A stretch of DNA of 64,000 bases, taken from assembly GCA_003868215.1 (NCBI GenBank), contig QWDQ01000022.1, positions 62,001 to 126,000 on the forward strand, in the 5' to 3' direction. Position 1 is the stretch's first letter. Each line of letters opens with the position of its first letter. The notes below the pieces were generated by a model. The model saw only the letters and a program-made list of their open reading frames with translations, did no database searches and was not told where the DNA came from. Source of the stretch: Pseudophaeomoniella oleicola (Eukaryota; Ascomycota; Eurotiomycetes; Phaeomoniellales; Phaeomoniellaceae). Shown piece after piece: positions 8,995-15,713 of the stretch. Position numbers and translations under genes: made by a program.

Positions 8995-9992
8995 ATGACG
9001 GACTACGCCAAGAAGACGGTCGCAGACTTGCAGGAGATTCTGAAATCACGCTCGTTACCTCATACTGGGAAGAAAGCTGAGCTTGTTGCGCGACTACAGG
9101 AGGATGATGCGAGTAGTGCGAATGGCGCTGAAAGTGAGTATCCTTGATTGTAACTGCGAGCATGGATCTATGAATCTGGTGCATCTCTTTTCTTGCGCAC
9201 ATCGTGAGCTATTCAGCTAACATGCCGGGTTTTCTTAGCCGCGACAGAACCAGCAGCTCCAGAGACGGTAGAGGCAATACCAGCACAAGAACCGACGCTA
9301 TCCAAACCTATCGATCCGGTTGATGCGCCCGCAGGTATGTGATCATACATCGCAGACAGCTCAATCACAAGTTATCGGATTCCCCTCCCGAAAGCTGGCG
9401 CAAACGTCTGCTTGTCATCGTTGCTTGTTGCTTTCACCTCCTCATTCTAACCCCTTGAACAGTTCCGGCACCTCCAGCTCCTGCAACAGATCCCGATGCA
9501 ACCTCAAACGCCGTTCCATCTTCCGAGACCGCAGGCCCAGGGGAAACAGCGACCGCCACCAAAGACACCTCAGCATTTACCGCAAACCTTGCTTCCACGG
9601 ACCTACAATCAGAGCTTGAGAAACGGAAGGCCCGTGCAGCTCGCTTCGGTGCCCCTGTCGAAGACGTCACGGAAGCCGAGAGAGTCGCCCAACGTGCCCA
9701 ACGGTTCGGTGTCTCTGGCCAGAACGGCGACAGCACCGGCGTAAAAGGTCTAGACGAAGCACTTCCCGAAAAGCGAGAGCGAAAGGCTGGGCCGCGAGGA
9801 GGTGGTCGCGGGGGCTTCAGTCGAGGCGGCAGCGGTGGTGGTGGCAGGGATAGGAAACGAGGCACCACACCACGAATCGGCGAGAGGGGCCAAATACAAA
9901 AACAGCAGAGCACTGGCACCACACCCTTCGCCAGCGAAAAAGACAAACTCGCAGCAGAAGCTCGGAGAAAACGATTCGCCGCTCAGGCATAA
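8995..9992 (+). CDS. THO1: SAP-domain RNA-binding protein, Tho1/SARNP type
   Basis: Nuclear protein linked to mRNP assembly and export with the THO/TREX pathway. Three exons: 8995-9133, 9239-9334 and 9463-9992, 254 residues. Residues about 4-38 form a SAP domain (VADLQEILKSRSLPHTGKKAELVARL), the DNA/RNA-binding helix-extended loop-helix. A Pro/Ala/Thr/Glu-rich linker follows. The C-terminal half carries the short repeats typical of Tho1/SARNP (RAARFGAP, RAQRFGVS, RRKRFAAQ) and a Gly/Arg-rich RGG-like stretch (GPRGGGRGGFSRGG), both expected to contact RNA. The introns (105 and 128 bp) are longer than most in the window. The SAP domain at the extreme N-terminus plus RFG repeats makes the assignment good; the name is by family, not demonstrated orthology. 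Confidence 0.88.
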
Positions 9993-10851
9993 TAACTCCA
10001 TTATCCCAATCCAATCAGAACCAGATTCAAATCAAAATCAAAAAGCCTCTCTCTCTCTCTCTCTCTTCTTTTCTATTTTTCTGTTTCTCCTTCTCTCTTC
10101 TGGGATTGTACTTGTACTGTAATTGTACTGTTATGTTACTGCTACTGTTGCCACCAGACTCTGAACCCTTTTTTATTTTTTTTATTTTTTTTGGAATATA
10201 AAATGCAAAAGATGTTGTCTCTTGTTGACATCCTCTTTTGTTCCTGATTGGGGTTTTAATGGGATGGTCTAGTCTATCTAAGAATGGATACTTGGGGGGG
10301 TGGGGGGAGGGCAAAACAGAGGGGTTCGGGAATGGATTGGGGAATGGATTGGGGATGAATGGGGAAAAGGAGAAAAAGGAGGGATTAGCTAATAGATAGG
10401 TTATTAGATAGGTACCTGTATTGGTTCATTCTTATTCTTGACTACCTGAGATACGTACCTAAGGTATTATGATTATTACCTTACCCTAGTATCTGTATCA
10501 GTATCAATATCAATATCAATATCAGAATCAGAAATTGGACTTTTGTGAGATGGGATGGATAGTCAAGGAAGGCAAGCAAGCAAGCAAGCAAGCAGCAATG
10601 TTAGGTATATACCTCTCTCCCCTGAACTATCATAGACGGACGGTCGGTCGGTCCTGCATGAATTTGGAAAAGCCAGCGGAAATAGCAGCAGAAGCAGCAG
10701 AAGCAGCAGAAGCAAACCCCCCCCTTTTCTTGAACTCGTTAAGAAGAAGAAGAAGAAAAAGAATACCTTTAACCCAAACCAAAGGGAACCAAAAACCAAA
10801 CCAATTTTTCCTCAATTTTCACTTCTGGATTTTCTCTATTTCAGTCTCAGT
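9993..10851. repeat. convergent intergenic region rich in simple repeats
   Basis: No gene seen between the 3' ends of the SAP protein and POB3. It holds a TC microsatellite at about 10047-10070, T-rich runs at 10170-10191, a G-run cluster at 10294-10324 with G-quadruplex potential, tandem copies of GGAATGGATTGG at 10327-10355, an ATATCA-type repeat at about 10498-10527, five CAAG units at 10573-10592, and GAAGCA-type repeats near 10683-10710. Confidence 0.65.
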
Positions 10852-12704
10852 TCATTTCCTCACCTTCTTCTTCGTCCGTTGATCCTCTTCACTATCCGCC
10901 TCGCCATCCGCATCATCCATCTCGACATCCTCATCATCTTCGTCATCAACACCCCCCTCAGCATCACTGCCTCCAGACCCGGAACTCTCATGGTCCGAGT
11001 CGTATTCCTCCGCGACGTCCGAGTCGCCCGACGAGGCTCGGAAATCTTCGTCGACGGATTCTTCGTCTTCGTCGGCGGAGCCGCGGACCTGGACGGGTTC
11101 ATCGTCGGAGTCGTCGTCTGAGGCGTCGATGCCGGCGGCGGCGAGGAGGGTGGCGGAGTCGTCGAGCATTTCGTTCTTGAAGCGGATGTTTTTGGCGCGG
11201 AAGAAGTCTTCTAGTGGTTGTTGTTCTTCCCTGGAAGCAAATGGGTTAGTTATTGGTTATGCAGCAGCAAAAAGGGAAATTAGTATCGGACTTTACCTGT
11301 TTATGTTGCTGAATTGATGTTCACCGGCACCATTCTTCATCGTCATGGTGATATCAAAGGTTCGAGAGGCAGAAATCGCGCCTCCAACTCGAGACATTGT
11401 GATAGAAGCGATGCTCTCGATCTGCACATATGTGGCAGGTTTGGGAACGAACATGAATGACTTGTCGAGACAGTAAAGGATGCCCTCATTCGCCTTGATG
11501 GAACACTTAATTCCGTTTTGGTTGTGGTGGGACGAGAAATCTTTGGATGGCATGATGATCTTCTTTCCAGAGAGGCCTTTGAAGACCTTGCTGAAGACGT
11601 GGTGAATAGGTGCTTCATAGTGCGACTCCAGTTTATCCTTGTACTTTGATTGAAGGAGCTCGTCCGTCATGTTGAGATCAATGCTCACTTCTTCATCCAG
11701 CTTGAGTTGCATAACAATAAACGGATACCGAGTTTGGCCTTGTCGGAGTGGAGGGTCAAGTCCCAGAGTGATAAGGGTGTGGGTCTCGTCTGGTTTCGGT
11801 AGGAGGAAGAACTTCTTGATTGATTGATACTGGATCTTGTAGTCGTATGTCTTACCACGTAATCTGAACGAGTTCTCGTACATATCGATATCGAAACGAC
11901 CACGGGGCGTAAGATGAAGGATGTCCAGGAAGGTGGCAAAGGTGTCGCCGGCGACCTCTCCGATCTGAGCCTTCTCAATTAATGTCTCGTAAAAGTGATT
12001 GGCAGCATTTTGCTGATCGTACTCTTCTTCGTCGGCACTGTTGACTTCACCTTCATCCTCTGCTTTCCTTGCGATTGTTCCAGGAATGTAGAAGCGCATC
12101 TCTACAAGCTCATCTCTGGCCGCGGCTGCTTTGTGACCTGTATTCTTGGTGGTACCAGTTTTGTGACCATTTTCCCCATCCACGTCTTCTCCCAGCTTAA
12201 ATTCTACTGCAACCTCGTTCTTGCCGGCAAGATTGGTATTTGAGATTTCAGTAAAAGGTATCTCGAAAGCAGGTCGACTTGCGACATTGAATGTAAGCTC
12301 TTCCTTGGTGAACTCTGCTTTACCCCAGTTCCATCCACGTAGCGCATGTTCTCTGCTGTCCACGGTGATCCCGTACCAGATTTTGAAAGCTTTCAGGATC
12401 CGGTCAAAGTCTTCCTGCTCGAAACCGTCCAGCTGTAACACACCCCCCGACTTCGGAAATATCTTAAGCTCATGGCCTTTTGACGCTCTGGACCACTGCG
12501 CAGCGCCGATGTTGTTACCGTCCAAAGTGAAAGTATCACCACCGCCTGCCGGCTTCCAACCAAGACCACTCTCGGCAAATCTGCATTTCCCTGGTGATTT
12601 CTGAAGATCGAGATAGATATTCTCGAAGCTCTCCCTAGTGAGAACGTCAGTATCCATGGTGGCGTTGAAGATGAAAGGATTCAAGGCTGGAGAGGCGCAT
12701 ACAT
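10852..12704 (-). CDS. POB3: FACT complex subunit Pob3 (SSRP1 family)
   Basis: Histone chaperone subunit; with Spt16 it forms FACT, which loosens and restores nucleosomes during transcription and replication. Exons on the minus strand: 12704-12703, 12634-11297 and 11230-10852, 572 residues. The N-terminal SSRP1/POB3 domain starts ESFENIYLDL..GKCRFAESGLGW, followed by tandem PH-like domains (ALRGWNWGKAEF, PAFEIPFTEISNTNLAGKNEVAVEF, then LTPRGRFDIDMYENSFRLRGKTYDYKI in pieces). The C-terminus is a long Asp/Glu/Ser-rich acidic tail ending in a basic KKKVRK; there is no HMG box, as in fungal Pob3. The start codon appears split: AT at 12704-12703, then a 68-bp intron with donor GTATGC, branch ACTGAC and acceptor CACTAG, then G at 12634, giving MESFENIY, the N-terminus I recall for filamentous-fungal Pob3. 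The alternative is the unspliced ATG at 12657, adding MDTDVLTR. The 3' intron (11231-11296) is ordinary. Confidence 0.93.
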
Positions 12705-13382
12705 GATGAGAGCAAAAAGAGTAAGGGTCTGAGTTCACTTGAATGATACTCTTACGATTGCGATGCACGGCGCCGAGCACAGACGACTGACTTGTTTGTA
12801 CAACGGCGGCCTCGTGAATGAGTGATCACTTCCGGGTACTTGCAGGTGGTGAATTTTGGGAGTTGGAGAAGCGCGACTGACGCGACCTTCCAGGCACTTT
12901 AGTTTTATCGTTCAGAGTCACGCTAATGTGGCCACTTCCCCGGATCTCCTCCTCCTAACTTATCGCCGGTCTACTCTACGTAGTACGATGCTAGACACTG
13001 AAGAAATCAACACAATAGAATAGATGCAAAAATCATCAGAAAGGCACATCCAACATAGTGTGAATTGATGCTTAAGGGAGTTGACAGGCTCTGATGGTCC
13101 TTCTTGCAACCTGTCAAGCAAGAGATATTACGCTGGAATCGACCGTCTTTAGGAGGTGAAAACATGTACTCTCTTGCCGTCAATACCAGATAATCGCAGG
13201 ACTAGGGCTATGGGCCCAGACAATGAAGCAGACAACATAGACTTAGTGTCGTCTATGATACGGACGTTACCTATATGGGTATATGATATCTCAATTTCAT
13301 AGATGCGTCCACGCTCCGATACAGGTATCAATCAATGCAATTCCCCTTCCCCTGTTACAATTCTGAACAGTGCAGTCTCCTT
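12705..13382. promoter_or_regulatory. POB3 upstream region / RSC4 downstream region
   Basis: No gene seen. It supplies the promoter and leader of POB3 (minus strand) and the 3' region of RSC4. A TACGTAGTA copy lies at 12977-12985. A 60-codon open frame at 13149-13331 (minus) has no recognisable product. Confidence 0.55.
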
Positions 13383-15713
13383 CTATTGACGTAAGAGATG
13401 GGCATAGATGGTTACCCTTTCAAAGTCTGTCGCCTCCCCGATGTTGTTGGGTTTTGCCTCAGTTCGAAGAGGGCCAGCAATAACGTCGACCCAAATGACA
13501 TTCATCCCGGGATTCAGTCGAAAATCATAGACAGGTGCATCAGCGTCCCCCGGAAGAGCAGCACGTGGAAATCCATTTTGAGACACAACAACTTTTTTCG
13601 CCACCCTCTCTTTGGCATTGGCGCTCAACTTTACTCCAAGGCGAATATAATAGTGTGACTGCGGTAAGACGACGGTGTGGGAATGTTGAGTCATCTTCGC
13701 TGAGGGAGGAATATCCAGATGGTACCGGCGGGCCACCTTGATACCAGGGTGCGTAGACATACTGACATTGGATAGTAAAGCAGAAGTGATATCTGAGACG
13801 TATAAGTAAGAAAGAGGTATGATTACATCAAGTGAGGATTGTTTACCTTTTCCAGAAGATCGGAAGCGAGTGTCAAGAATGGACGTTGGCTTATGGACAG
13901 GCCGCGGAGGAGGTGGAGGAGCAGCTTGAGGTGCTGGAGTCCCCTGAGACGGAGCTCCTGGAGGTGGAATAGACGGTCCCTTGGTAGTTGCCGCACCAGT
14001 CGGAGTAGTGGGTGTCCCCGTGGTCTTTTCCGCATCGACTCCGTTGACTTGTGAAGCAGGAGTGCCGTTCGTTGTAGCCTGTACAATCTCGCGTCGGGGT
14101 GCTATATTCAAGCATTGTCAGGACACAGCATCGAGAATAATCTAAAAGAATTGACACACCTTCACTAGCTCTTGCCTTGACATCTCCAGAAGATCCTGGG
14201 CGTACAGTCTCTTGTTGTCGTTTGGCGGCATCAGTCTCAGTAGTCACCCGTGGCGGCGTTGAGACCGGCGGGGTCTTGCTTGGACCATTATGAGTTAGAA
14301 TGAGCTTCTTCTGTGCCGGCTCTGGTGTCTCGGAAGCGTTGTTCATCGTCAACTTCAGCTTGGGCAACCCATTGGCATTCATAGCTGCTGGATCTTTGAC
14401 ATGTTTGCGAGCCTCGGCTAAGCGAGGTTCAAAGTATTCCTAGTAAAATGTCAGCGTCCTTCAAGAGATCATCGCCTAATCTTCCAGACCTCTAGTTTGC
14501 CTGCTAGCTCGTAGATCTCAGAGCCCTCTTCGTTATACGCCCTGGCATTTTTCCAAAGCAATCGAACATCGTCGGCAAAGGCGTCCCATGAATTATATAG
14601 GGAAGTGCCTGTCACGCGATTATGCACGACGCCCCTCGCACGTTTCTGCAAGATCAAGAGAGCAACTGGTTTGGATATCTTGCGATAGTAGTCCGCATAT
14701 CGCTTCTTGTCGGGTCTCTCCAAGAAGTTGACCGCAATATCATTACCCCTGGGAGCCTGTTAGACACGGTGAATTCGCGAGATAAACCCTTAAGAGGTAC
14801 TCACTCATCATCTTTGAGGTTAATCAACTCATCCATGATCATTTCCTGAGCTTGTTGGAAAGTTACACCTTCGAAGCTATCAAGAGTAGACACAGGTGGA
14901 GGTGCAGGAGTAGGTGCAGGTGCAGGTGCAGGTTTGCCCAGCTTGAGTTTTGGTGTTGCAACAGCTGGGGACCCTGTCACCGCTCGCTTGTTCGTGAGCT
15001 TGATCTTCAGAGAGCTCCTTCTCTTTTCTGTAGGCGGCTCTTCCTGCGGCTCGTCTTTCGAAGGGCCGTCTGGGATGGGTGTGGGTACGGCTTTGTATGT
15101 CGGATCACTGTATCTAGGATTGTACTTAGGCATGAAGTTTGCCATAGCTTTACGGAGCCTCTCAGCATCTTCTGTGATCTGTGAACCTCGCTCGTTGAAG
15201 TCTCTTGCATTCTGTATCAGCCGCTTCACGTCTCCTTCGAGCGCCTCAAGCGTTGGATATTCATGGCGATTCAACTTCCTCTAGACAGAGTCAGTCACTT
15301 TGATATCTTCGAAGGTACGGTATATATGTTCCCGCGTACCTCAATAGTATCCAACGCCAATGGTAGCTTGATCTGCTCATAATACTCTGGGATAAGTTTC
15401 TATCTCCTGTGTCAGATCAATGCATATTGACAAGCATGGCGGAAAACTTGGTTTACCTTATCCGGGAGATGAAGGAATTCGGTCGCAACCTCGCGACCCC
15501 TGCACAAGATCAGTAAGATGCAGGCGTCAGAAGCAATGATGGAAGTACGTACTGCGAGTCTTTGCATTTTTTCAGTATTTGCAGTAACTTCAATCCGACC
15601 TCTGTTGTGCCTTCTGGCGTCTCTTCATTGTCACCGCCCTGGGAAATTCAAGATACGTGTTAGTCGTCAGTGACATTACGTACTGCGCGATCAAAAGATG
15701 ATAGTTGTGTCAT
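13383..15713 (-). CDS. RSC4: RSC chromatin-remodelling subunit Rsc4 (tandem bromodomain)
   Basis: Subunit of the SWI/SNF-type RSC remodeller that reads acetylated histone tails. Nine exons on the minus strand: 15713-15684, 15638-15553, 15499-15457, 15399-15340, 15280-14805, 14748-14490, 14439-14160, 14101-13847 and 13792-13383; about 632 residues. Bromodomain 1 spans roughly residues 40-130 (FLHLPDKKLIPEYYEQIKLP ... LIQNARDFNERGS). Bromodomain 2 follows a basic/Pro-Ala linker (NFLERPDKKRYADYYRKISKP ... LWKNARAYNEEGS). The last about 200 residues, after a Pro-rich stretch, form the conserved Rsc4 C-terminal region. All junctions keep phase. The first exon is uncertain: the modelled ATG at 15713 gives a short N-terminus, and an upstream ATG at 15819 opens a different frame, so a missed 5' exon is possible. 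The 54-bp intron at 13793-13846 is in frame and stop-free. Confidence 0.88.

Follow-up and report, generated by a model that had tools for sequence, protein, structure and literature searches.

The window, a 64,000-nucleotide stretch of the Pseudophaeomoniella oleicola genome, carries on its minus strand (12704-10852) the POB3 gene, which encodes the smaller subunit of the histone chaperone FACT (Table 1). The product contains POB3_N, SSrecog, PH1_SSRP1-like and Rttp106-like_middle domains in this order, all four above the Pfam cut-offs, which bears out the gene name given in a preliminary description of the locus; its relatives in the PDB are 7nky, 7xsx and 4khb. A single match to the POB3 query is reported in the 26.1 Mb assembly, and it is this locus. 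With both introns removed, the protein has 572 residues and the N-terminus MESFENIYLDL. The position of the second intron varies: here it follows NINR, and the related protein P0034 reads across that site and ends at DFFKVS. The gene upstream of POB3 lies on the same strand (13383-15280) and encodes an RSC4-type chromatin remodeller subunit, with bromodomain stretches at 14469-14759 and 14801-15280 and an RSC4 Ig-like domain at 13383-14114, so that a remodeller subunit adjoins a FACT subunit. Convergent to POB3 is an open frame on the plus strand (9459-9989) with a Tho1/MOS11 C-terminal domain (PF18592, E 1.7e-12). The 3′ flank of POB3 (10500-10780) contains, by eye, many simple repeats, including runs of GCTT, CTGCTT and GATATT.

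Table 1. Features of the POB3 gene in the window (slash, splice junction).
Feature	Position	Strand	Basis
Exon 1, final two bases AT, which open the POB3 start codon	12703..12704	-	Sequence and homolog N-termini
Intron 1, phase-2, 68 nt, GTATGC donor and CACTAG acceptor, cutting ATG as AT/G	12635..12702	-	Sequence and comparative signature
ACTGAC, branch-site-like	12646..12651	-	Sequence; commonest branch hexamer in candidate introns of the genome
POB3 exon 2, first base G completing the start codon	11297..12634	-	Sequence and Pfam domains
Intron 2, ordinary phase-2, 66 nt, GTAAAG..CTAAC..CAG	11231..11296	-	Sequence
POB3 exon 3, acidic C-terminal tail and stop codon	10852..11230	-	Sequence
Seven-codon frame MYAPLQP-stop if intron 1 is retained, stop at 12683-12681	12681..12704	-	Sequence
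In-frame ATG within intron 1, context CGCCACCATGGAT, start of the MDTDVLTR form of Pob3 on a retained transcript	12655..12657	-	Sequence

The preliminary description placed the AT of the start codon before a 68-nt intron and its G after it. The letters and coordinates of this intron are as described, and joining the exons completes the ATG and yields the expected N-terminus, with GAG AGC TTC (ESF) following the G. AT and G thus lie on separate exons with GT, AG and a branch site between them, at a branch-to-acceptor spacing of 12. Upstream of the split codon, the minus strand has no ATG starting in the interval 13035-12705, so that in a transcript whose 5′ end lies within about 330 nt the split ATG offers the earliest start. 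A GTAAGA donor further upstream, near 12755, was rejected by eye, as it joins no ATG to the acceptor.

The splice signals had been called good, which holds for the branch site and the acceptor, both common among candidate introns of the genome, but less so for the donor GTATGC, which is acceptable and not the best. A loose flank rule gave 29 candidate introns, against 10, 6, 15 and 5 in four decoys, so that genuine introns may make up half of the set or more. In this set ACTGAC leads the branch hexamers (5/29), a TAG end occurs in 14/29, and the branch distances include 11 in five introns, 12 in four and 17 in four. The GTATGC donor appears in none of these 29 and in one of the 14 unique introns that a strict rule retained from 17 groups; selection by coding score gave only 1 and 4 introns and was set aside. 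The combined pattern AT/GTRNG..CTRAY..YAG/G, scanned with an intron span of 45 to about 110 nt, has 10 matches in 528,000 strand-bases (264 kb, both strands), or 1.9e-5 per strand-base. This rarity, together with the placement of the match on the base that homologs predict, argues that the arrangement is not due to chance.

Three protein searches, represented by the best 120 of 1947, 120 of 927 and 120 of 1015 matches, provided 291 distinct orthologs for comparison. The residue read in each is the one directly before the E of the conserved E[ST]F motif, and this junction is readable in 280 of the 291 listed. Where a phase-2 intron lies at the junction, the residue combines two upstream bases with the first base of exon 2. 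If the latter is G, the residue must be encodable by NNG: M reflects AT/G after splicing, R reflects AG/G read through from the intron, and other NNG residues are expected where a gene finder attaches some other exon. Because an unbroken ATG also yields M, this residue was not counted as support for an intron, and counts are given without it as well.

The 113 Eurotiomycetes and Cirrosporium examined include 70 models that extend upstream of the junction (22 with M, 48 with another residue). Their -1 residue is NNG-encodable in 70/70 cases, compared with 521/693 at positions -2 to -13 (Fisher p 1.1e-8), and in 48/48 when M is left out (p 3.4e-6); the models are related to one another, which makes both p values smaller than they should be. 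The motif is absent from 10 of the 114 proteins on the Eurotiomycete list and from P0221; P0061, P0066, P0099, P0100 and P0116 have SFDN attached to other residues, and P0014, P0020, P0088, P0097 and P0109 are partial or odd at the junction. Among all matched proteins with a species name, Sordariomycetes aside, the residue is NNG-encodable in 150/150, comprising 82 with M, which are uninformative alone, and 68 without. These 150 come from Eurotiomycetes (103), Leotiomycetes (22), Lecanoromycetes (13), Dothideomycetes (5) and Geoglossomycetes (3), with one each from Xylono-, Candelario-, Coniocybo- and Xylobotryomycetes. In the Sordariomycetes (n = 92) the residues are I (64), F (16), S (6), M (3), T (2) and R (1). 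Here I would fit AT/C after splicing and S would fit AG/C read through, with the caution that the set of residues with C- or T-ending codons is broad and has no control. The conserved intron for which the preliminary description had suggested looking in related fungi is therefore marked at the same place in POB3 of relatives, as judged from proteins alone; many of these are automatic gene models, and the codon bases assigned to the relatives are deduced from the residues.

Only 34 of the 104 matched models on the Eurotiomycete list have the M of M-E[ST]F as their first residue; the other 70 have residues upstream of the acceptor. Such residues could mean that a different upstream exon, with an ATG of its own, is spliced to the same acceptor and that the AT/G form is minor. 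Some extensions do recur across species, for example SFSK-MESF in models from Aspergillus flavus, A. parasiticus and A. arachidicola. However, models of the same species conflict with one another (A. pseudonomiae P0056, P0059 and P0074; A. flavus P0053, P0075 and P0079), as expected of gene finders that are unable to place a split start, and the window has no ATG within 330 nt upstream. We consider a different first exon very improbable.

P0001 is the closest relative among the matches listed, with 93% identity over the exon-2 query and 87.6% at full length. This protein has 572 residues (longest contig 2,019 bp), carries M directly before ESFENIYLDL and is unbroken across the intron-2 site, a pattern as expected of a spliced transcript. 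More generally, the 38 matched proteins without a species name divide by length: the junction residue is R or S in 2 and another one in 26 of those with at least 510 residues, against 9 and 1 for the shorter ones (Fisher p 3e-6). The short proteins end prematurely, which is what translation of genomic DNA across a later intron would give, and the full-length ones, from longest contigs of mostly 1.8-3.6 kb, appear to be transcript-derived. The long proteins with R are P0112 (45-kb contig) and P0119 (2.2 kb); against the pattern, P0183 has a spliced-type residue despite its 318 residues.

These comparisons also bear on the possibility that there is no intron, that the splice-like signals are a product of chance and that translation begins at the unbroken ATG 12657 (MDTDVLTRESF...). 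The frame from this codon is open through exon 2 without a stop, and its surroundings, CGCCACCATGG, form what we take to be a strong start context. Yet DTDVLTR is found in 0 of the 291 orthologs listed, P0001 begins M-ESF, the junction signature calls for an intron in relatives whose 3′ end is at this base, and the combined splice signals are rare by chance. On the homologs and the junction signature, MDTDVLTR is rejected as the real N-terminus, and the intronless reading as a whole has only a marginal chance of being correct.

We thus return to the split start codon and assign a probability of about 0.92 to the reading in which a 68-nt phase-2 intron, itself old, parts AT from G, and the spliced mRNA, predicted to read CTCATC-ATG-GAG, encodes the 572-residue Pob3. 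The earlier proposal that splicing creates the POB3 start codon agrees with the sequence and with the protein-level comparison with relatives. By extension to this species, intron 1 would be removed from nearly every transcript, and the first start codon reached by scanning ribosomes would be CTCATCATGG. The consequences of retention were also described correctly as far as they can be read from the sequence, namely the seven-codon frame opened by the ATG at 12704 and the in-frame ATG at 12657. On a retained transcript, ribosomes would start at 12704 and stop after seven codons; reinitiation or leaky scanning at 12657 could then produce a Pob3 with seven extra residues, reading MDTDVLTRESFENI. 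It is more likely that retention would lower output, because of the upstream frame, and that initiation at 12657 would make up for some of the loss.

The preliminary description went further and suggested that retention could switch the start site. Such regulation, in which splicing licenses Pob3 and retention gives the seven-codon frame together with an extended Pob3 begun at 12657, is compatible with the split-codon reading, and the geometry it requires exists in the sequence. Retained 5′ UTR introns of Yarrowia lipolytica are discussed as sources of upstream frames in the part of PMC13309789 used here. The same text also reports that splicing is most efficient for introns close to the start codon and that expression varies least in the genes that carry them. 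For POB3, the peptide encoded within the intron is not conserved: it is missing from every listed ortholog, and P0034 reads MTDLESDRIYR. No conserved alternative start or retained product was thus found among the 291 listed, and a regulated switch, although possible from the sequence, is unsupported and in our view improbable.

The history of the intron was approached with a FastTree phylogeny of 68 Pob3 proteins, midpoint-rooted and built without an outgroup. The P. oleicola protein pairs with P0001 and is followed by Endocarpon, Knufia, Cladophialophora and Exophiala (support 0.997) within the Eurotiomycetes; the host POB3 is that of a Eurotiomycete near Chaetothyriales and Verrucariales. 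Eurotiomycetes have both M and the read-through R at the junction, which indicates that the start codon itself is split there. Proteins start exactly at M in 13/13 Lecanoromycetes, in Xylona and in Elasticomyces (one of the five Dothideomycetes); the Lecanoromycetes and Xylona are uninformative on the intron, since they have only the M that an unbroken ATG would give. The Dothideomycetes (R 2, K 1, V 1, M 1) and Geoglossomycetes (W, P and M, the P and M models both being from Trichoglossum hirsutum) are few, but the split codon is probably the initiator in both. Candelina and Chaenotheca have R only, which indicates that the intron is present and does not tell which bases precede it.

A different arrangement is seen in the Leotiomycetes (M 10, R 7, L 4 and K 1 of 22), with short forms MAM, MSM or MAL, and in the Sordariomycetes, whose N-termini are mostly MAAI or MTAI, with three showing M. 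In most members of these two classes an upstream ATG appears to start the protein, so that the split codon would be codon 3 or 4, and the residues suggest that it is also AT/C (Ile) or TT/G (Leu). Among the proteins without a species name, P0212 falls among the Leotiomycetes in the tree and starts M-ENF, unlike Leotiomycetes with a species name. P0267, P0268, P0271, P0273 and P0276 read M-E[AT]F, the last with an upstream in-frame M (contigs of about 5.4 kb for P0273 and P0276); four of the five are placed in the tree, where they group with Dothideomycetes, and loss of the start-codon intron is possible in their lineage.

Eurotio-, Leotio-, Dothideo-, Geoglosso-, Candelario-, Coniocybo- and Sordariomycete models share the mark of a phase-2 intron at the same base, which points to an old intron. 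The simplest account takes AT/G as start codon for the oldest state and lets the Leotio-/Sordariomycete line acquire an upstream ATG; the tree having no outgroup, the reverse direction is also possible. We tentatively suggest, at slightly less than even odds, that the POB3 start codon has been cut since the common ancestor of several leotiomyceta classes, that Leotio- and Sordariomycetes escaped through the upstream ATG, the freed codon drifting from AT/G to AT/C, and that Pob3 in the remaining classes depends on one splicing event for any start at all. If this is true, the split is either kept by selection for splicing-licensed translation or merely hard to lose.

The split POB3 start is not a one-off but an ancient peculiarity common to related fungi, and it misleads gene annotation. 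It explains the scattered POB3 N-termini in public fungal annotations, in which only about a third of the matched models on the Eurotiomycete list start at M-E[ST]F. Annotators have already met the split start, as MESF starts in database models attest, and as far as our searches show have not written on it. The function of Pob3 is unchanged by the finding. The locus is a natural setting in which to ask for how long a start codon made only by splicing can be tolerated, and how lineages leave this state.

An engineered split start codon has reportedly been the subject of one published study. Our searches of the open-licence literature brought up no publication on a split start codon in POB3. A search of viral contigs for fungal DNA gave four pattern matches and zero confirmed cases. 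At the level of the protein, the P. oleicola gene encodes an ordinary Pob3 with the POB3_N, SSrecog, PH and Rttp106-like domains of POB3/SSRP1 in FACT, and differs from the usual POB3/SSRP1 only in the layout of its start codon. The preliminary description called start codons interrupted by introns rare; this stands, yet there are precedents. In the microsporidian Nosema ceranae, a predicted intron interrupts the start codon of RPL19, according to the portion of PMC2685015 consulted. Yarrowia lipolytica has 42 introns with a 5′ splice site right after the A, T or G of the ATG, beside 561, 1700 and 118 introns at other places (PMC13309789, in part). The figure of 42 covers all three positions together, and the material drawn from that source gives no AT/G share and no ages across classes. 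Like the Yarrowia cases, POB3 is a fungal gene whose intron adjoins or interrupts the start codon, and like Nosema RPL19 it has the intron within the start codon itself. Unlike RPL19, which encodes a microsporidian ribosomal protein, POB3 is a histone-chaperone gene of filamentous ascomycetes whose intron mark is common to several classes, and its split start adds one case to the known class of start codons cut by introns.
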